Virus record (IMG/VR): IMGVR_UViG_3300033149_000173
Location: 1-41,322 of that record
DNA: 41,322 nucleotides
Source of the DNA: a virus
Reading direction: 5' to 3' (one strand)
Of the stretch, positions 4,238 to 25,419 are shown one piece after another (within the stretch, counting starts at the first letter, position 1; the number at the start of each line of letters is the position of its first letter). Under the pieces are notes generated by a model. The model was not told where the DNA came from, ran no database searches, and saw only the letters and a program-made list of their open reading frames with translations. The position numbers were made by a program, and so were the translations under genes.

Positions 4238-4258
4238 CACAAATTATTAATCATAATT

Positions 4259-4284
4259 CCCTGTTAGTTTTCTAGCAGGGTTTT
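4259..4284 (+). terminator. Intrinsic terminator
   Basis: CCCTGTTAG at 4259-4267 pairs with CTAGCAGGG at 4272-4280 (nine pairs, one G.U) around a TTTT loop and is followed by TTTT at 4281-4284. This is a classic rho-independent terminator placed between the 97-aa and His-rich genes. Confidence 0.85.
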
Positions 4285-4299
4285 ATTAAAACTAGAAAA

Positions 4300-4944: not shown

Positions 4945-4961
4945 AGTTCTTTAAAATAATA

Positions 4962-4983
4962 AGCTCCGGTTTTTACCGGGGCT
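4962..4983 (+). terminator. Hairpin terminator-like element after the His-rich gene
   Basis: AGCTCCGGT (4962-4970) pairs with ACCGGGGCT (4975-4983), nine pairs with one G.U, around a TTTT loop. The downstream run is ATTATAAAA rather than poly-T, so it could be a weak terminator or a 3'-end stabiliser. Confidence 0.65.
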
Positions 4984-5001
4984 ATTATAAAAAAAAATAT
5001 T

Positions 5002-7642: not shown

Positions 7643-7656
7643 AAACATTGTTAATC

Positions 7657-7670
7657 AAGTGATTATAAAA
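7657..7670 (+). promoter_or_regulatory. Leader element AAGTGATTATAAAA (copy 1)
   Basis: The 14-base word lies directly before the holin ATG at 7672 and recurs exactly at 25405-25418, also touching an ATG. A related form (11 of 14 bases) is at 18280-18293 inside the structured intergenic region. The function is unknown. Its position suggests translation initiation or transcript processing. Confidence 0.45.
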
Positions 7671-7671
7671 A

Positions 7672-9842: not shown

Positions 9843-10062
9843 ACTAATAAAAGTTGCAAAAGAACCTATTGTTGATAGTGACGATGATATATCTGCAGAC
9901 AGACTTAAAAATGCAGCAGCTACAAAAAAATTAGCTATATTTGATGCTTTTGAAATACTTAACCGTATTGAAGAAGAAAAAAATATGCTAGAAGATAAGC
10001 CAAAAGAAGAAGTTAAAAAAGAAAAAACCTTCAAGGGTTTTGCAGAAGGAAGATCTAAGTAA
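9784..10062 (+). CDS. Small terminase subunit candidate
   Basis: In this 92-residue protein, the helical pattern IIQAGQVAVDELIKVAKEP, the ADRLKNAAATKKLAIFDAFE segment, and a charged tail ending GFAEGRSK look like the short DNA-recognition subunit found before TerL in this group of phages. It overlaps the upstream gene by 59 bases and couples to terL by TAATG. Position and size fit TerS, which selects the packaging site, but no helix-turn-helix is certain. Confidence 0.6.
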   Translation: MKIKETKKNIIQAGQVAVDELIKVAKEPIVDSDDDISADRLKNAAATKKLAIFDAFEILNRIEEEKNMLEDKPKEEVKKEKTFKGFAEGRSK

Positions 10063-12272
10063 TGTATTCTCAAACTTTATATAAAATATTAAAAGATCAT
10101 ATTAAGCCACATATTGTTAGTAAAAACAATAAAAAGAAAAAATGGGAATATGGTTATAATAAAGAGCACGATATTGTTATAATAAGTAAAAGCGGTCAAA
10201 TAGGTGAGATATATGAAATACAAAACCTTAAAATAGCTTTACCTAAACAAAAAAACATACACAGTTTTGAAAATAATAAATGGGATAAAACAGAGTATCC
10301 TAAATCTTTATCAAAAATTAAAACTGTTTTTGATTGGAAACAATATCCAGAAGATTTTAAAGAAAAATGGTATGATTATATTGATCAAGAATTTACTCGT
10401 AGAGAAGAAGGTTTTTGGTTTTATAATAAAGATAAAGCTACTTATATTACTGGCACTCATTATATGTACCTGCAGTGGTCTAAAATTGACGTCGGGGCAC
10501 CAGACTTTCGAGAAGCAAATAGATTATTCTTTATTTTCTGGGAAGCTTGTAAAGCAGATCAACGATGCTACGGGATGTGCTACCTTAAGAACAGGCGTTC
10601 CGGGTTTTCTTTCATGGCCTCTGGAGAGGTGGTCAACCTGGCAACCATATCAAGTGACTCCAGGTATGGTATATTATCAAAGTCCGGTCCTGATGCAAAG
10701 AAGATGTTCACAGACAAAGTGGTTCCAATTTCGGTTAATTATCCCTTCTTTTTCAAACCAATACAGGACGGAATGGATCGTCCAAAAACCGAACTTGCCT
10801 ATCGTGTCCCCGCCTCCAAGTTTACCAGACGTAAACTCGAGACCAATGAAACCGTGGAGGAGTTACAAGGACTTGATACCACCATCGACTGGAAGAATAC
10901 AGGTGATAACTCCTACGATGGGGAGAAACTCAAACTCCTTGTACATGATGAATCAGGGAAGTGGGAAAAGCCAAACAACATCCTCAACAACTGGAGGGTT
11001 ACAAAAACCACACTAAGATTAGGTAGTAGAATTATTGGAAAATGTATGATGGGTTCAACAAGCAACTCATTAGACAAAGGTGGTGATAATTTTAAAAAAT
11101 TATATGATGATTCAGATGTTACACAAAGAAACGCAAATGGACAAACACGTTCGGGACTCTATAGTTTGTTCATTCCTATGGAATGGAATTACGAAGGATA
11201 CATTGATTCTTATGGATTACCTGTGTTCGACACACCTGGAAAACCAATCATTGGACCTAGAGGAGATAAAATTGATATTGGAGTTATTAAATATTGGGAA
11301 AATGAAGTTGAAGGATTAAAGCAAGATCAAAACGCTTTAAATGAGTTTTACAGACAGTTTCCAAGAACAACTCAACATGCTTTTAGAGATGAATCTAAAG
11401 CTTCTTTATTTAATCTAGTAAAGATATACGAACAAATAGATTTTAATGAAGATACAAATAGCTACAAAATAGTAACTAAAGGATCTTTTATGTGGGAGAA
11501 TGGTGTTAAAGATACTAGAGTTATTTTTATGCCAAATGAAAACGGTAGATTTAATGTTTCATGGGTTCCACCTAAACATTTGCAAAACAATGTTATAATT
11601 AAAAATGGTGTTAAATATCCAGGAAACGAACATACAGGATGTTTTGGATGTGACCCTTATGACATATCTGGAACAGTAGATTCTAGAGGATCAAACGGTT
11701 CGTTACACGGACTTACTAAATTTTCTATGGAAAACGTACCTCCAAATATGTTTTTTTTAGAATATATATCAAGACCACAAACAGCTGAAATATTTTTTGA
11801 AGATGTTTTGATGGCTTGTATTTTTTATGGTATGCCAATATTAGCAGAAAACAATAAGCCAAGATTGCTGTATCATTTTAAAAGAAGAGGTTATAGAGGT
11901 TTTAGCATGAACAGACCTGATAAACTTTTTATGAAACTTTCAGTAACAGAAAGAGAAATAGGTGGAATACCTAATTCAAGTGAAGATATTAAACAAGCGC
12001 ATGCCGCTGCTATAGAATCATATATAGAAACCTACATTGGTAATTTAGGTTTAAAATATGGTGATATGTATTTTCAAAAAACATTAGAAGACTGGGCTAA
12101 GTTTGATATAAATAATCGAACAAAACACGATGCTTCTATTAGTAGTGGTTTAGCAATAATGGGTTGTAATAAAAATATGTATAAACCCATATTTACTAGA
12201 ACTTTAACACCAAAACCATTAGGTTTTAAAAAATATAGTAATAAAGGAAATATTTCAAAAATAATAAAATAG
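10062..12272 (+). CDS. terL: Large terminase subunit (ATPase plus nuclease)
   Basis: This is the DNA-packaging motor. It translocates DNA into the prohead and cuts concatemers. In the ATPase half, KNRRSGFS (176-183) occupies the Walker A position in a deviant form without the usual GK pair. KLLVHDESGKW (290-300) is Walker B with D296/E297, and MGSTSNS follows as the coupling motif. The nuclease half shows GCDPYD (D531), AEN (E596) and KHDA (D690), the RNase-H-like metal triad. The length of 736 residues matches crAss-like and related podoviral TerL. Codons from about 10560 to 11010 are markedly GC-rich (about half G+C) against about 30 percent downstream, suggesting a recombinant patch in the ATPase domain. 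Confidence 0.95.
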   Translation: MYSQTLYKILKDHIKPHIVSKNNKKKKWEYGYNKEHDIVIISKSGQIGEIYEIQNLKIALPKQKNIHSFENNKWDKTEYPKSLSKIKTVFDWKQYPEDFKEKWYDYIDQEFTRREEGFWFYNKDKATYITGTHYMYLQWSKIDVGAPDFREANRLFFIFWEACKADQRCYGMCYLKNRRSGFSFMASGEVVNLATISSDSRYGILSKSGPDAKKMFTDKVVPISVNYPFFFKPIQDGMDRPKTELAYRVPASKFTRRKLETNETVEELQGLDTTIDWKNTGDNSYDGEKLKLLVHDESGKWEKPNNILNNWRVTKTTLRLGSRIIGKCMMGSTSNSLDKGGDNFKKLYDDSDVTQRNANGQTRSGLYSLFIPMEWNYEGYIDSYGLPVFDTPGKPIIGPRGDKIDIGVIKYWENEVEGLKQDQNALNEFYRQFPRTTQHAFRDESKASLFNLVKIYEQIDFNEDTNSYKIVTKGSFMWENGVKDTRVIFMPNENGRFNVSWVPPKHLQNNVIIKNGVKYPGNEHTGCFGCDPYDISGTVDSRGSNGSLHGLTKFSMENVPPNMFFLEYISRPQTAEIFFEDVLMACIFYGMPILAENNKPRLLYHFKRRGYRGFSMNRPDKLFMKLSVTEREIGGIPNSSEDIKQAHAAAIESYIETYIGNLGLKYGDMYFQKTLEDWAKFDINNRTKHDASISSGLAIMGCNKNMYKPIFTRTLTPKPLGFKKYSNKGNISKIIK
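10560..11010 (+). other. GC-rich mosaic patch inside terL
   Basis: Hand counts give 30/60 G+C at 10561-10620 and 32/60 at 10801-10860, against 18/60 at 11881-11940 in the same gene. Codon choice shifts to GCC, CTC, GTC, ACC and GAG, which are rare elsewhere. The reading frame is intact and encodes Walker A to Walker B. A milder shift begins near 10470. Confidence 0.85.
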
Positions 12273-14687
12273 ATGATAACATATAATTATGCAGGTTCAT
12301 TTCCTAGTCAGGTGGTACCGGACGCGGAAAAGCAAACGATGGAATATGGTTACGCTGTAGGTAGAGCTATTGAAGGAGAGTGGTTTTCTGGAGATAGAGG
12401 AGGTATGGGTAACAGATACCAAAACAGCTGGTTAAATTTTCATAGACTAAGACTATATGCTAGAGGTGAACAACCTGTTCAAAAATATAAAGATGAACTT
12501 GCTGTAAACGGTGATTTATCATATCTTAATTTAGACTGGAAACCAGTTCCTATTATACCTAAATTTGTAGATATAATAGTCAATGGTATGTCTCAAAGAA
12601 TTTTTGATATAAAAGCATTTGCTCAAGACCCTGAGTCATTAAAGCAAAGAACAAAATACGCAGACGCTATAATGCGTGATATGTATGCTAAAGAAATGAT
12701 ACAAGCTACTAAAGAAGCTACAGGTTTAAATTTCTTTAATAGCGCTGATCCTAATAATATTCCTGAAACTCAAGAGGATTTAGACTTACATATGCAATTA
12801 AGTTACAAGCAGTCTATAGAAATTGCAGAAGAAGAGGCTATTGACAACGTTTTACAAGCCAACAAATATGAGTTAGTTAAAAGAAGATTAATAGAAGATT
12901 TAACAGTAATAGGTATAGCTGCAACAAAAACTAATTTTAATTTAGCAAATGGAATTGATATTGATTATGTTGATCCTGCTAATCTAGTATATTCTTACAC
13001 AGAAGATCCAAATTTTGAAGATATATACTATGTAGGCGAAGTTAAATCAATGAGTTTGGTAGAAGTAAAAAAACAATTTCCATGGTTAACTGATCAAGAA
13101 TTAGAAAAAATAGAAAAATATCCTGGTGATGCTAATTACACTAGAAACTTTTATGCTCAACAAGATTCTTATAATCAAGTTCAGGTGCTATATTTTGAAT
13201 ATAAAACATATAGTAATCAAGTTTTTAAAATAAAACAAACTGAGCAAGGTTTAGAAAAAGCATTAGAAAAGCCAGATACTTTTAATCCTCCATCTAATGA
13301 TAATTTTGAAAGAGTTGGTAGAGCTATAGAAGTTTTATATACAGGTGCTAAAATATTAGGTCATGATATGATGTTGGAGTGGAAACTATCAGAAAACATG
13401 ACTAGACCTAACGCTAATGTTAGTAAAGTTAATATGAATTATTGTATATGTGCTCCTAAATTATATAAAGGTATGATTGAATCTACGGTGAGTCGTATTA
13501 CAGGCTTTGCTGATATGATTCAATTAACACATTTAAAATTACAACAAGTGTTATCTCGTATGGTTCCAGACGGTGTATTTGTAGATGTTGATGGTTTAGC
13601 TGAAGTTGATTTAGGTAATGGTACTAACTATAATCCTGCAGAAGCTTTAAACATGTATTTTCAAACTGGTAGTATTGTTGGTAGATCAATGACTCAAGAA
13701 GGTGATATAAATAGAGGTAAAGTACCTATTCAAGAATTACAAACATCTTCAGGTGGCCAAAAAATAGCTAGCTTAATACAAACTTATCAATATTATTTAC
13801 AGATGATAAGAGACGTAACCGGATTAAATGAAGCTACGGATGCAAGTACTCCTGATGTAAAAGCGTTAGTAGGTTTACAAAAAATTGCTGCAGCTAATTC
13901 TAACACAGCTTTAAGACATTTAATGAAGGCTAGTTTATATTTAACTTTAAGAGTATGTGAAAACATTTCATTAAGAATAGCAGATGTTCTTCAATATCCT
14001 TTAACTAGAGCTGCTTTAATAGATTCTATATCTGCTTATAATACAGGTACATTAGAAGAATTACAAGAAAAAAGTTTACAAGACTTTGGTATATTTTTAG
14101 AATTAGAACCAGATGAAGAGCAAAAAGCGCAGCTTGAACAAAACATACAGGTTGCTTTAGCTTCTGGTGGTATAGATTTAGACGATGCTATAGATATTAG
14201 ACAAGTTAAAAATTTAAAACTAGCTAATCAATTATTAAAGCAAAAACGTAAAAAGAAATTAGAAAAAGATCAAGCAGCTCAACAAGCTAATATACAAGCT
14301 CAAGCCGCTGCTAATGCTCAAGCTGCTGAGCAAGCTACTTTAGCTGAAATGCAAAAAAGACAAGCATTAGCTGAAACAGAAGTTCAAATAGAACAAGCTA
14401 AATCTCAATTTGAAATACAACGTATGCAAACTGAGGCTAGTATTAAAAAAGAATTAATGGCTGAAGAGTTTAATTACAATATGCAATTAGCTCAAATTAA
14501 AGCAGATGCAGAAGGAAGAAAAGAACAAGAAATAGAAAACAGAAAAGATAAAAGAATTAAAATGCAAGGTACGCAAGAATCTCAATTAATACAGCAAAGA
14601 CAGAATAACGCTTTGCCTACTGATTTTGAATCTGCTGGTTTTGATTCTTTAGGTGGTTTTGATTTAGAACAATTTGAACCTAGATAA
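12273..14687 (+). CDS. Portal protein
   Basis: The 804-residue protein lies directly after terL and before the scaffold. It should form the dodecameric ring at one capsid vertex through which DNA moves. Supporting features are its length, an N-terminal region with PIIPKFVDIIVNGMSQRIFD (head-proximal alpha-beta core), and the segment RDVTGLNEATDASTPDVKAL typical of portals in crAss-like phages. A helical C-terminus about 120 residues long and rich in Gln, Ala and Glu (roughly 665-765) probably forms a coiled-coil barrel. The gene starts at the terL stop without a gap. No truncation is visible. Confidence 0.9.
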   Translation: MITYNYAGSFPSQVVPDAEKQTMEYGYAVGRAIEGEWFSGDRGGMGNRYQNSWLNFHRLRLYARGEQPVQKYKDELAVNGDLSYLNLDWKPVPIIPKFVDIIVNGMSQRIFDIKAFAQDPESLKQRTKYADAIMRDMYAKEMIQATKEATGLNFFNSADPNNIPETQEDLDLHMQLSYKQSIEIAEEEAIDNVLQANKYELVKRRLIEDLTVIGIAATKTNFNLANGIDIDYVDPANLVYSYTEDPNFEDIYYVGEVKSMSLVEVKKQFPWLTDQELEKIEKYPGDANYTRNFYAQQDSYNQVQVLYFEYKTYSNQVFKIKQTEQGLEKALEKPDTFNPPSNDNFERVGRAIEVLYTGAKILGHDMMLEWKLSENMTRPNANVSKVNMNYCICAPKLYKGMIESTVSRITGFADMIQLTHLKLQQVLSRMVPDGVFVDVDGLAEVDLGNGTNYNPAEALNMYFQTGSIVGRSMTQEGDINRGKVPIQELQTSSGGQKIASLIQTYQYYLQMIRDVTGLNEATDASTPDVKALVGLQKIAAANSNTALRHLMKASLYLTLRVCENISLRIADVLQYPLTRAALIDSISAYNTGTLEELQEKSLQDFGIFLELEPDEEQKAQLEQNIQVALASGGIDLDDAIDIRQVKNLKLANQLLKQKRKKKLEKDQAAQQANIQAQAAANAQAAEQATLAEMQKRQALAETEVQIEQAKSQFEIQRMQTEASIKKELMAEEFNYNMQLAQIKADAEGRKEQEIENRKDKRIKMQGTQESQLIQQRQNNALPTDFESAGFDSLGGFDLEQFEPR

Positions 14688-15928: not shown

Positions 15929-17371
15929 ATGAGTTTAACTCCACAATTTGGGTCTATTATCCCATCACAAAAACAAGAGTTACTTAATAGTAACTACTTA
16001 CAGTGGACTGATAAGGCAGGTAATGATTTTGTTGACTTTGCGCAGCAATATTTACCAGAAATCTACGAACAAGAAGTTGAGCGTTATGGAAACAGAACGT
16101 TATCAGGTTTCTTGAGAATGGTAGGTGCTGAAATGCCTATGACGTCTGACCAAGTAATTTGGTCTGAACAAAATAGATTACACATTGCGTATGACGGTGT
16201 TGCTATCGGAAATGGTGCAGGTGTAAATACTATTACAATTACTGTAACAGCTACAGTAAAAAACGTAGTATCTCCTAAGAGTACTATCGTTATTATGGAT
16301 GACGCTGGTAAAGAAATCAAAGCTTATGTATCTGCTAGTAATACTGCTACAGGTGTATTAAACGTTCTTCCTTACACAGCTGCTGATTTACAAGGATTTG
16401 CTGCAACTGGTAAAATCTTTGTTTATGGTTCTGACGTACAAAAAGGTCAGTCTGTAAGCAATGCTCCAGACGCTGCAGGTGCTGTAACTGGTGATCAATA
16501 CATCAGTGTTGATCCTGCTTTCACACAATTCTCTAACTCACCAATCATTATTAGAAGCAAGTACGTTGTATCTGGTTCTGATACTGCACAAATCGGTTGG
16601 GTTGAAGTTGCTACTGAAGACGGAACATCTGGATATTTATGGTATCTTAAAGCTGAGTCTGAAACAAGACTTAGATTTGAAGATTACTTAGAAATGTCTA
16701 TGGTTGAAGGTGAATTATCTAAAAATGGTGGTGCTGCTATTAAAGCACTTACTAAAGGTACACAAGGTTTATTTGCTGCTATCGAAGATAGAGGTAATGT
16801 AAACGTTGGATTCACTGCTGCTGCTGGTATTGATTCATTCGATGCTATTCTTAAAAACTTAGATACTCAAGGTGCTATTGAAGAAAACATGCTTTTCTTA
16901 CAAAGACAAACAGCTTTAGATTTTGATGATATGTTAGCTAATATATCTGGAGGCTATGCTGGTGGTACTGCATTTGGTTTATTTGAGAACTCTGAGGAAA
17001 TGGCATTAAATTTAGGTTTCTCTGGATTCAGAAGAGGTTCTTATGACTTCTATAAGACTGACTGGAAATACTTAAACGATGCTTCTACTAGAGGTGCTAT
17101 GGACGGTGTTAGTTCTATTGAAGGTGTATTAATACCTGCTGGAACATCTACTGTTTATGATCAAATTCTTGGTACAAACATTAGAAGACCTTTCTTACAC
17201 GTAAGATATAGAGCTTCTCAAGCTGATGATAGAAGAATGAAGTCTTGGCTAACTGGTTCAGTTGGTGGGGCATTTACTTCTACTCTTGATGCTATGGAAG
17301 TTAACTTCTTATCAGAAAGATGTCTTGTAACTCAAGGTGCTAACAACTTTGTATTATTCAAAGGAGTGTAA
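15929..17371 (+). CDS. Major capsid protein (HK97 fold, crAss-like type)
   Basis: This is the main shell subunit, 480 residues. It starts MSLTPQFGSIIPSQKQELLN and ends with NFLSERCLVTQGANNFVLF, a closing segment I associate with crAss-like capsid proteins. A long helical region (SRLRFEDYLE-like, about 248-268) and beta segments near 95-215 fit an HK97 core with an inserted beta domain. Codon use shifts toward C-ending codons (TTC, AAC, TAC, ATC) relative to neighbours, as expected for the most highly expressed gene. It is followed by a strong extended hairpin. No N-terminal processing site is evident. Confidence 0.9.
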   Translation: MSLTPQFGSIIPSQKQELLNSNYLQWTDKAGNDFVDFAQQYLPEIYEQEVERYGNRTLSGFLRMVGAEMPMTSDQVIWSEQNRLHIAYDGVAIGNGAGVNTITITVTATVKNVVSPKSTIVIMDDAGKEIKAYVSASNTATGVLNVLPYTAADLQGFAATGKIFVYGSDVQKGQSVSNAPDAAGAVTGDQYISVDPAFTQFSNSPIIIRSKYVVSGSDTAQIGWVEVATEDGTSGYLWYLKAESETRLRFEDYLEMSMVEGELSKNGGAAIKALTKGTQGLFAAIEDRGNVNVGFTAAAGIDSFDAILKNLDTQGAIEENMLFLQRQTALDFDDMLANISGGYAGGTAFGLFENSEEMALNLGFSGFRRGSYDFYKTDWKYLNDASTRGAMDGVSSIEGVLIPAGTSTVYDQILGTNIRRPFLHVRYRASQADDRRMKSWLTGSVGGAFTSTLDAMEVNFLSERCLVTQGANNFVLFKGV

Positions 17372-17382
17372 GTACTTGAAAT

Positions 17383-17414
17383 AAGGTAAGGGCGCTTCGG
17401 CGCCCATATACCTT
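17383..17414 (+). terminator. Extended UUCG hairpin after the capsid gene
   Basis: GGGCGC (17390-17395), loop TTCG (17396-17399) and GCGCCC (17400-17405) form a stable tetraloop stem. It is prolonged by AAGGTA (17383-17388) pairing with TACCTT (17409-17414) across a small internal loop. The downstream run is only TAACTTATTT, so it may end transcription partially or protect the capsid mRNA 3' end. Confidence 0.85.
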
Positions 17415-17418
17415 TAAC

Positions 17419-17438
17419 TTATTTAATTATATTATATT
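17419..17438 (+). promoter_or_regulatory. 20-base A/T leader, exact copy of 14701-14720
   Basis: The 20 bases before ATG 17439 are identical to those before the scaffold gene. They lie directly after the capsid hairpin and have no Shine-Dalgarno sequence. The function is inferred as a translation leader. Confidence 0.6.
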
Positions 17439-18245
17439 ATGGAAAAAAATAAAAAATCAGAGGTGGTTGAAAAACCTATTAAGGTTAATCCACCTAAAAA
17501 AGAAGTTAAACCTTCTTGGGAAATAAAAGATAGAAGATATTACTTAAATGATAATAAAGAACCATTAACATTTACAATACCTTCTAAACATACTAGAAAA
17601 CACTCGTTACTTTATTTTGACGCAGAGTCAGGTAAACAAAGAGAACTTAGATATGCTACTAATCAAGATTCTCCTTTTGTAGATGAACAAAAAGGTGAAG
17701 CAACTTTAGGTCATATAATTTTTAAAGATGGAGCATTAATGGTTCCTAAAGAAAAACAAAATCTTCAAAAGCTTTTATCATTATATCATCCGTTAAGAAA
17801 CAAAATGTATTCAGAGTTTAACGCTGTAGAAGAAGCTACTGATGAATTACAATTATTAAGCCTTCAAGTTGATGCTTTAAATTTAGCTAGAGAAATTGAT
17901 ATTGATTTAGCAGAAGCAATATTAAGAGTTGAAGTAGGTTCTAAAGTTAATGAGATGTCTTCAAAAGAATTAAAAAGAGATTTATTAATTTTTGCAAGAG
18001 CTAATCCTATATTGTTTATGGAGTTAGTAAGAGATGAAAATGTTCATCTTAGAAATGTTGCAATTAGAGCAACTGAAGCAGGTATTATAAAATTATCTCA
18101 AGATCAAAGATCGTTTAGTTGGGGTTCTAATAATAGAAAACTAATGAATGTTCCTTTTGATGAAAATCCTTATTCAGCAATGGCTGCTTTCTTTAAAACA
18201 GATGAAGGAGTAGAAATTTACAAGTCTATAGATAAAAAACTCTAA
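17439..18245 (+). CDS. Conserved head-region protein of unknown function
   Basis: The 268-residue protein follows the capsid gene. After a charged N-terminal 30 residues come a beta-rich part (YYLNDNKEPLTFTIP) and a mostly helical middle (ELQLLSLQVDALNLAREI and ELKRDLLIFARANP). The C-terminus has MNVPFDENPYSAMAAFFKTDE, a pattern I have seen in proteins next to capsid genes of crAss-like phages and marine myoviruses. A head completion or internal structural role is likely but not established. It shares its exact 20-base leader with the scaffold gene. Confidence 0.75.
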   Translation: MEKNKKSEVVEKPIKVNPPKKEVKPSWEIKDRRYYLNDNKEPLTFTIPSKHTRKHSLLYFDAESGKQRELRYATNQDSPFVDEQKGEATLGHIIFKDGALMVPKEKQNLQKLLSLYHPLRNKMYSEFNAVEEATDELQLLSLQVDALNLAREIDIDLAEAILRVEVGSKVNEMSSKELKRDLLIFARANPILFMELVRDENVHLRNVAIRATEAGIIKLSQDQRSFSWGSNNRKLMNVPFDENPYSAMAAFFKTDEGVEIYKSIDKKL

Positions 18246-18264
18246 AAACATGTAATAATAATAA

Positions 18265-18430
18265 TTGTAAAGAACGCGCAAGTGACTATAAGGACCAGCT
18301 AGTGCAAACTGTGTGTGAGAGCGGTCCGTGCAGATGTTAATCGTGGGCTTTACAAAACAGCAAAGAGATGAGCTCGCCTCCTCCCTTACATTCCCACCCA
18401 GGTGGGAGCGTAATAGGAAGCGGACTCATC
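18265..18430 (+). ncRNA. Candidate structured RNA between head and tail modules
   Basis: This is the largest non-coding interval (18246-18458) and is GC-rich (29/60 and 33/60 in two counted lines) against its AT-rich surroundings. Domain 1: TTGTAAAG (18265-18272) pairs with CTTTACAA (18348-18355). It encloses GCGC/GTGC (18276-18279 with 18328-18331), GGACC..GC with GC..GGTCC (18292-18299 with 18321-18327), and a TAGT-GCAA-ACTG hairpin with a GNRA loop (18300-18311). Domain 2: GATGAG/CTCATC (18367-18372 with 18425-18430), CGC/GCG, TCCT/AGGA, TTAC/GTAA and TCCCAC/GTGGGA (18392-18397 with 18402-18407) stack in order around a CCAG loop. No known RNA class is recognised, and the strand is assumed from gene direction. 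Confidence 0.7.
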
Positions 18431-18458
18431 CCCCTGGCCGTTTAAAAAATAAGATTAA

Positions 18459-19373
18459 ATGGCAATAAATGTAGATAAAGTTTACAAAACAGTCTTACTT
18501 ATAATCAACAAAGAACAAAGAGGTTATTTAACTCCAGATGAGTTTAATAAAATTGCAACTCAAGTTCAACTAGAAATATTTGAAAGCTATTTTGAAACGT
18601 TAAATCAACAAATAAGATTACCACAAAACGAAAGTGAATATGGTAATAGATATAAAACGGTTCAAGAAAAACTAGATATTTTTAAAGTACTAGGCAACAC
18701 TACTTATGTCGCTAGTAATCCTAACTATTTCAACACTCCCAACTCTGGAGTGGCAAGCGGTACGCAGACTTTTGCGACAGTTAATAATCAAACCGCTTAT
18801 ACATTAACAACAATAACACAAGCTCAAGTAGAAGATAGTAACGTTATAGTAACACTAAATGGTGTTGCTTATACTAATTATAATATAACTGGTGGTACTT
18901 TTAATCTTACCGCTGGATCTATTGCAGCTGGATCTACGTTATTAATAACTTTATATCCACAAGATTTTTATAAATTAGGAACTGTATTATACAAAGATGA
19001 TAAAGAAGTTCAATGTGTAGAAAGAAATGAGCTAGCTCAAATGAACATGTCTACTATTACAAAACCTTCTGAGTATTTTCCAGTGTATGTATATGAAGAT
19101 AAAAAAATTATAATATATCCTCAAACAATAAACTCTAATGTATCAGTAACTTATGTTAGAAAACCATCAGATGTAACGTGGAATTTTACAACTACTACTG
19201 GTTATTATGTTTGGGATCCAACAACTTCTGTTGATTTTGAATTAGATGTATCAGAGCAAAGCACAGTTATTTTAGAAGTTTTAAAATATGCTGGTGTAAC
19301 TATTAAAGATCCTGCTATAGTTCAAGCAGCAGCTCAAGAATTAGCAGCTAATGAAATAAACGAAAAACAATAA
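18459..19373 (+). CDS. Tail ring / head-tail connector protein with inserted beta module
   Basis: The 304-residue protein has a helical N-terminal region (MAINVDKVYKTVLLIINKEQ and EFNKIATQVQLEIFESYFE), as in adaptor proteins that dock on the portal. Residues about 98-168 form a beta module (QTAYTLTTI..., VTLNGVAYTNYNITGG, GSTLLITLYP) that looks inserted. The C-terminal part returns to mixed strands and helices (VSVTYVRKP and a closing helix). It is the first gene after the structured intergenic region and before the tail-tube gene, so a connector or ring role is likely. Confidence 0.7.
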   Translation: MAINVDKVYKTVLLIINKEQRGYLTPDEFNKIATQVQLEIFESYFETLNQQIRLPQNESEYGNRYKTVQEKLDIFKVLGNTTYVASNPNYFNTPNSGVASGTQTFATVNNQTAYTLTTITQAQVEDSNVIVTLNGVAYTNYNITGGTFNLTAGSIAAGSTLLITLYPQDFYKLGTVLYKDDKEVQCVERNELAQMNMSTITKPSEYFPVYVYEDKKIIIYPQTINSNVSVTYVRKPSDVTWNFTTTTGYYVWDPTTSVDFELDVSEQSTVILEVLKYAGVTIKDPAIVQAAAQELAANEINEKQ

Positions 19374-25387: not shown

Positions 25388-25404
25388 TAAAATATTAAAT
25401 AAAT

Positions 25405-25418
25405 AAGTGATTATAAAA
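25405..25418 (+). promoter_or_regulatory. Leader element AAGTGATTATAAAA (copy 2)
   Basis: This is an exact second copy of the 14-base word found before the holin gene. It ends one base before ATG 25420. The function is unknown. Confidence 0.45.
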
Positions 25419-25419
25419 C

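Follow-up and report, generated by a model that had tools for sequence, protein, structure and literature searches.

Comparable systems in other phages

In phage T7, which transcribes with its own single-subunit polymerase, the partial terminator Tphi lies behind gene 10 (capsid) and ahead of gene 11 (tail) and separates the expression of head and tail genes. Another structured phage RNA, the pRNA of phi29, is comparable in size to the element described here. Flavobacterium phage elemoE, ctfjg026 and Cellulophaga phage Calle_1 are cultured crAss-like phages that carry textbook intrinsic terminators, consisting of one short GC stem and a run of 5-8 T, at the head-tail junction and at the junction of the capsid-type virion protein gene (MCP). 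These terminators are followed by TAnnTTTG motifs, which we take to be the host-type promoter motif of Bacteroidetes. For crAss001, middle and late transcription is believed to rely on the RNA polymerase of the host (PMC8375218).

The window analysed here is a virus record of 41,322 bases whose gene content points to a crAss-like podophage. Compared by capsid protein, its closest cultured relatives are phages of Maribacter, Flavobacterium and Cellulophaga, and judging from these hosts its own host probably belongs to the Bacteroidota. The phage also encodes a GroEL/Cpn60-type chaperonin of 518 aa (210-1766). The features of the locus are as follows.

10062-12272: terminase large subunit (TerL)
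12273-14687: portal
15929-17371: capsid-type virion protein (MCP)
17439-18245, plus strand: g268, last gene of the head block, directly 5′ of the element (268 aa, PHROG 34748, unknown function)
18248-18263, plus strand: ACATGTAATAATAATA, a conserved box whose consensus in the family is ACAnGTrATnnTAATA; candidate for a promoter or another transcription signal
18264-18443, plus strand: element occupying the place of the ancestral 30-50-nt hairpin seen in relatives, from intergenic comparison with 136 relatives
18265-18355, plus strand: domain D1, with an 8-bp closing stem (18265-18272 with 18348-18355)
18355-18443, plus strand: domain D2, a long hairpin formed by a near-continuous inverted repeat
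18459-19373, plus strand: g304, opening gene of the tail/connector block (virion structural protein of 304 aa, PHROG 14543)
20651 (start): protein of 1578 aa that matches the Crassvirus muzzle

The gap between g268 and g304 (18246-18458, 213 nt) is the largest and most GC-rich space among the main genes, with 45 % GC against approximately 30 % around it. Three other gene borders (17372-17438, 4945-5001 and 4238-4299, the last with a terminator-like T-run) carry simple GC hairpins whose lower stems are AU-rich, so structured intergenic spaces are the rule in this genome and that at 18246-18458 is only larger.

Predicted fold of the element

Folding of positions 18240-18460 (221 nt, plus strand) gave a minimum free energy of -67.6 kcal/mol with a z-score of -4.50, and none of 200 dinucleotide shuffles was as good; the minus strand of the same stretch gave a z-score of -4.73. 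A preliminary description of this DNA had proposed GC-rich, structured non-coding sequence between the head and tail modules, which is borne out by the base composition and by a fold better than that of shuffles of equal composition. The two domains and the 8-bp closing stem it listed are also recovered and its start at 18265 is that of the D1 closing stem, but the structured part continues to 18443, past the end it had placed at 18430. Most of the excess stability comes from D2, which taken as 18354-18446 has z-scores of -5.8 on the plus and -6.6 on the minus strand (0/500 shuffles), while D1 alone (18265-18357) is modest at -2.5 and -1.3 respectively. Strand preference is split within the element, D1 favouring plus and D2 minus; the G-U pairs of D2 (7 versus 2, with the fold more stable on the minus strand) are small numbers for a choice of strand.

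Within D1 the nested helices are predicted to consist of CGCG/CGUG, a GUGAC-side helix and GGACC/GGUCC. A GNRA hairpin had also been described, but it is not in the minimum free energy structure and appears just as a weak CGC-GCAA-GUG alternative. The helices of D2 are of approximately 6, 4, 4, 4 and 7 pairs, close to the 6, 3, 4, 4 and 6 counted by eye, around the CCAG loop (18398-18401) that had been correctly noted, the apical stem being 18391-18397 with 18402-18408. The CTGG suggested as a pseudoknot partner of this loop is present, one base from where it had been placed (18434-18437 rather than 18435-18438), and the pairing is not conserved: in the variant L082 the loop is UCAC with the CTGG unchanged.

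As a stable GC-rich hairpin D2 resembles an intrinsic terminator, but the U-run of approximately five or more expected right after the stem is absent and D2 has GUUU/GUUUU, with 3-4 T. The sequence behind the stem reads GTTTAAAAAA in the window and GTTTTAAAAA in relatives of the species. A terminator scan of the plus strand called no terminator at the element and, as D2 is without a proper U-run, pure intrinsic termination is not established by the fold. The start of g304 is predicted to be open, with unpaired probabilities of 0.89-1.0 at 18444-18458, and the model therefore gives no sign of start-site masking.

Searches for homologues and known families

The comparison with Rfam that had been recommended returned nothing at the gathering threshold, which covers the phi29-type packaging RNA and the self-cleaving ribozyme classes described there; the sole match with E ≤ 10 was to a microRNA model of vertebrate type, on the opposite strand, and was judged to be chance. 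No tRNA or tmRNA was found. Searches for similar DNA gave none in phages and one match in plasmids, judged to be chance. Exact-seed scans of IMG/VR and of genome contigs recovered the element in the same species only, with seeds of 16-20 nt that relatives under roughly 85 % identity could escape; other seed hits (L163, L164, L177-L181) were judged chance or coding. A covariance model of the element searched against 40 complete records likewise found the same species only. Each species record searched, as well as the window, holds one copy at a single site, unlike REP- or MITE-like multicopy elements. The PF00078 reverse transcriptase expected of a retron was absent from the 62.9-kb record of L082, which may be incomplete, with positive controls. 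A protein-coding explanation was rejected: D2 is spanned by a frame of 44 aa, but this matches nothing in Pfam and its differences in L082 mainly change amino acids.

A short hairpin occupies the border in relatives

With the capsid protein and g304 as queries, IMG/VR yielded 160 loci. Of these, 136 were comparable in that g268 and g304 could each be located on either side of the border, the species itself being excluded; these comprise 93 distinct and 47 non-redundant sequences. In the loci compared g268 adjoins MCP. All 136 comparable relatives have a single short hairpin at the head-tail junction, within a border of approximately 50-115 nt. This hairpin spans 30-50 nt, its lower stem is AU-rich, and it has none of the D1 or D2 sequence. 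All 47 non-redundant borders are strongly folded (z from -3.5 down, mean -5.4) despite wide divergence in sequence. RNAalifold gave no consensus on the alignment of the relatives (A4), because stem length and sequence are too variable for a sequence aligner, and consensus folding gave way to z-scores for each sequence, pairwise compensation and a strand test. Among the pairs that differed in ungapped pairwise comparisons, the change was compensatory in 18 cases, one-sided in 94 and broke the pair in 52. In the predicted folds of the 47 relatives there are 110 G-U pairs on the plus strand against 29 on the minus, and the plus strand is the more stable in 46; shuffled sets gave approximately 92 and 93 G-U pairs, and none of 100 matched the observed strand difference. 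This asymmetry shows that the hairpin of the relatives is selected as sense-strand RNA. The 8 nt past the GC stem are T-rich in these relatives (4.5 of 8, against 31 % T overall).

The element was found in the window and in three contigs only, the loci that carry it being L001, L082/L084 and L083, all of the same species and at an identical position, with flanking genes differing by approximately 1-3 %. The closest other relatives (L085-L092, with 87-89 % identity in g304) have the short hairpin only. The element is therefore either recent or has been lost from every other relative, and one gain is the simpler account. The preliminary description had looked to homologous intergenic regions for conservation of an undescribed RNA class; with the element found in one species only and an ordinary border hairpin in every comparable relative, a new RNA class is not supported.

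Variation within the species is limited. L082 differs at six of thirteen sites in the apical stem-loop of D2 (18391-18408) with pairing kept except at the top pair, through one double compensatory change, one U-G to C-G change and one opened top pair. The remainder of its element has no further internal change, and the apical swap looks like one local replacement event. Such covariation, being one event, supports the apical stem only; the shuffle control on the three species rows (154/500) is uninformative with so few rows. In L083 an 8-nt deletion (18263-18270) removes six of the eight 5′-strand bases of the D1 closing stem (18265-18270), though an assembly fault is possible in this 6.5-kb metagenome contig. 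Of the compensatory changes that had been sought in the listed stems, there is thus one double change in D2 and, in D1, a closing stem largely deleted in L083. Elsewhere in the element, outside the changed apical stem-loop and the deleted 5′ bases, just two substitutions separate the variants.

A conserved box precedes the hairpin

Box-like strings, also written TAAGTGATTATAA, occur before several genes in the clade, and at the same offset before the hairpin in 33 of the 47 non-redundant relatives. The copy at 18248-18263 is the top PWM hit in the window; the next hits at gene starts, at 7655 (7655-7671) and 25403 (25403-25419), abut the start codon. Exact matches lie 5′ of an ERF-family gene in two phages (L182:1009 and L185:960), and a further copy is on the minus strand of L186 at 612. 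The box is a candidate phage promoter or other, possibly late, transcription signal. A 249-aa protein with weak similarity to sigma-70 regions 2 and 4, below the Pfam cut-offs, is encoded at L182:234-983 (same species) and L185:185-934. It adjoins a box copy and may be a phage sigma factor that reads the box.

Proposed role and alternative explanations

The element lies between g268 and g304, with conserved flanks, exactly where relatives have the border hairpin, so the simplest assumption is that the two serve the same purpose. On sequence comparison we consider it reasonably likely that in this lineage a conserved cis-acting hairpin (a terminator, attenuator or transcript-end protector) at the border of head and tail transcripts has been enlarged or replaced by the element. 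This reading is based on the conserved position and hairpin, the sense-strand selection in relatives, the terminators of cultured relatives and the restriction of the element to one lineage. The predicted open start of g304 and the reliance on host polymerase presumed for late transcription in crAss001 also speak for it. The family hairpin would form a border structure in the late mRNA between the head genes (TerL, portal, MCP and g268) and the tail genes from g304 onward, most likely acting as an intrinsic terminator or attenuator and as a transcript-end protector, whereby head and tail messages would be made and degraded separately. In this species a 180-nt two-domain fold would have taken the place of the short hairpin and most likely retained its function, to end or thin out transcription past the head genes and/or to shield transcript ends. 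A cis-regulatory role had been among those first proposed, and comparison with relatives favours such a role, at the RNA level and on the sense strand.

The terminators of the cultured crAss-like phages (the elemovirus, Calle_1 and ctfjg026) share with the element its flanking genes, its position and a GC-rich sense-strand hairpin, but each is one short hairpin with its T-run and TAnnTTTG whereas the element has 180 nt, two domains and only 3-4 T. The short hairpins of the clade have the same flanks and genes, mostly with the box, and are strongly folded sense-strand RNA but single and with an AU-rich lower stem. The element lies behind the capsid gene as Tphi does but has no homology to it, and we only infer termination there. 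Counting against a border hairpin are the want of a long U-run behind D2, the negative terminator scan, the greater stability of D2 on the minus strand and some 150 additional nt that far exceed the needs of a terminator. The box 5′ of the hairpin in this clade would also fit a hairpin in a 5′ leader.

It is possible, if on the unlikely side, that the box acts as a promoter, perhaps for a phage sigma factor, and that transcription begins just behind it. The tail mRNA would then carry the hairpin, or D1-D2, as its 5′ leader, which would shield the message from decay and/or modulate how g304 is translated. High conservation of the box directly 5′ of the hairpin in most relatives, its recurrence before other genes and the weakly sigma-70-like protein beside one copy would all be explained, and sense-strand RNA selection fits equally well. 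However the box is not a known promoter and abuts the start codon at 7655 and 25403, cultured relatives show the reverse order of terminator and then TAnnTTTG, and the hairpins end in a T-rich, terminator-like 3′ tail. We give less weight to a trans-acting small RNA of an undescribed family, of approximately 180 nt in two domains, arising from the head-tail border of the late transcript of this one crAss-like species, with the apical hairpin of D2 under changing selection; it could be a regulator, a host-factor decoy or a defence inhibitor, acquired at a tolerant site and perhaps processed from late mRNA. Its complexity beyond that of a terminator, its high stability and the want of homologues elsewhere would agree with this, as would an apical stem-loop that changes with pairing kept in an element with so few other substitutions. 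But neither an own promoter nor a clear terminator was found, D1 is only modestly structured and its closing stem is mostly missing from the L083 contig, covariation within the species comes down to one double change, and with flanking genes so similar the conservation of the element is uninformative.

Improbable too is a DNA-level element or the relic of a mobile or selfish insertion (a hairpin transposon end, a REP-like unit, or what is left of a retron or intron) inserted into the border hairpin. The jump in GC content, the abrupt presence or absence between close relatives and the nearly equal pairing of D2 on both strands would be expected of such a relic, but the element is single copy in the records searched, no target duplication was seen, no reverse transcriptase was found in L082, and plasmids, phages, IMG/VR and genome contigs outside the species gave no match. 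As for the packaging cofactor or ribozyme that had been suggested, the structured appearance and the location near head genes are all that speak for a pRNA-like molecule or a self-cleaving RNA. The element differs from phi29 pRNA in having no match in Rfam, which includes such families, in belonging to a different phage group and in not being conserved among relatives, which have the same terminase, portal and capsid genes without it, making either role highly improbable.

A structure first seen in a single genome can thus be put as a comparative statement, in which crAss-like phages keep a sense-strand hairpin at this border whose sequence drifts while the fold stays. If the element retains the role of that hairpin, the one lineage with a much larger fold would be a natural experiment on the ratio of head to tail messages in abundant phages.

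Other enlarged gaps

A large gap in L015 proved to be frameshifted coding sequence. In L043, L053 and L124, a small subclade, the border is approximately 114 nt long and includes an additional, AT-rich hairpin as well as a second one; this is another lineage-specific enlargement.
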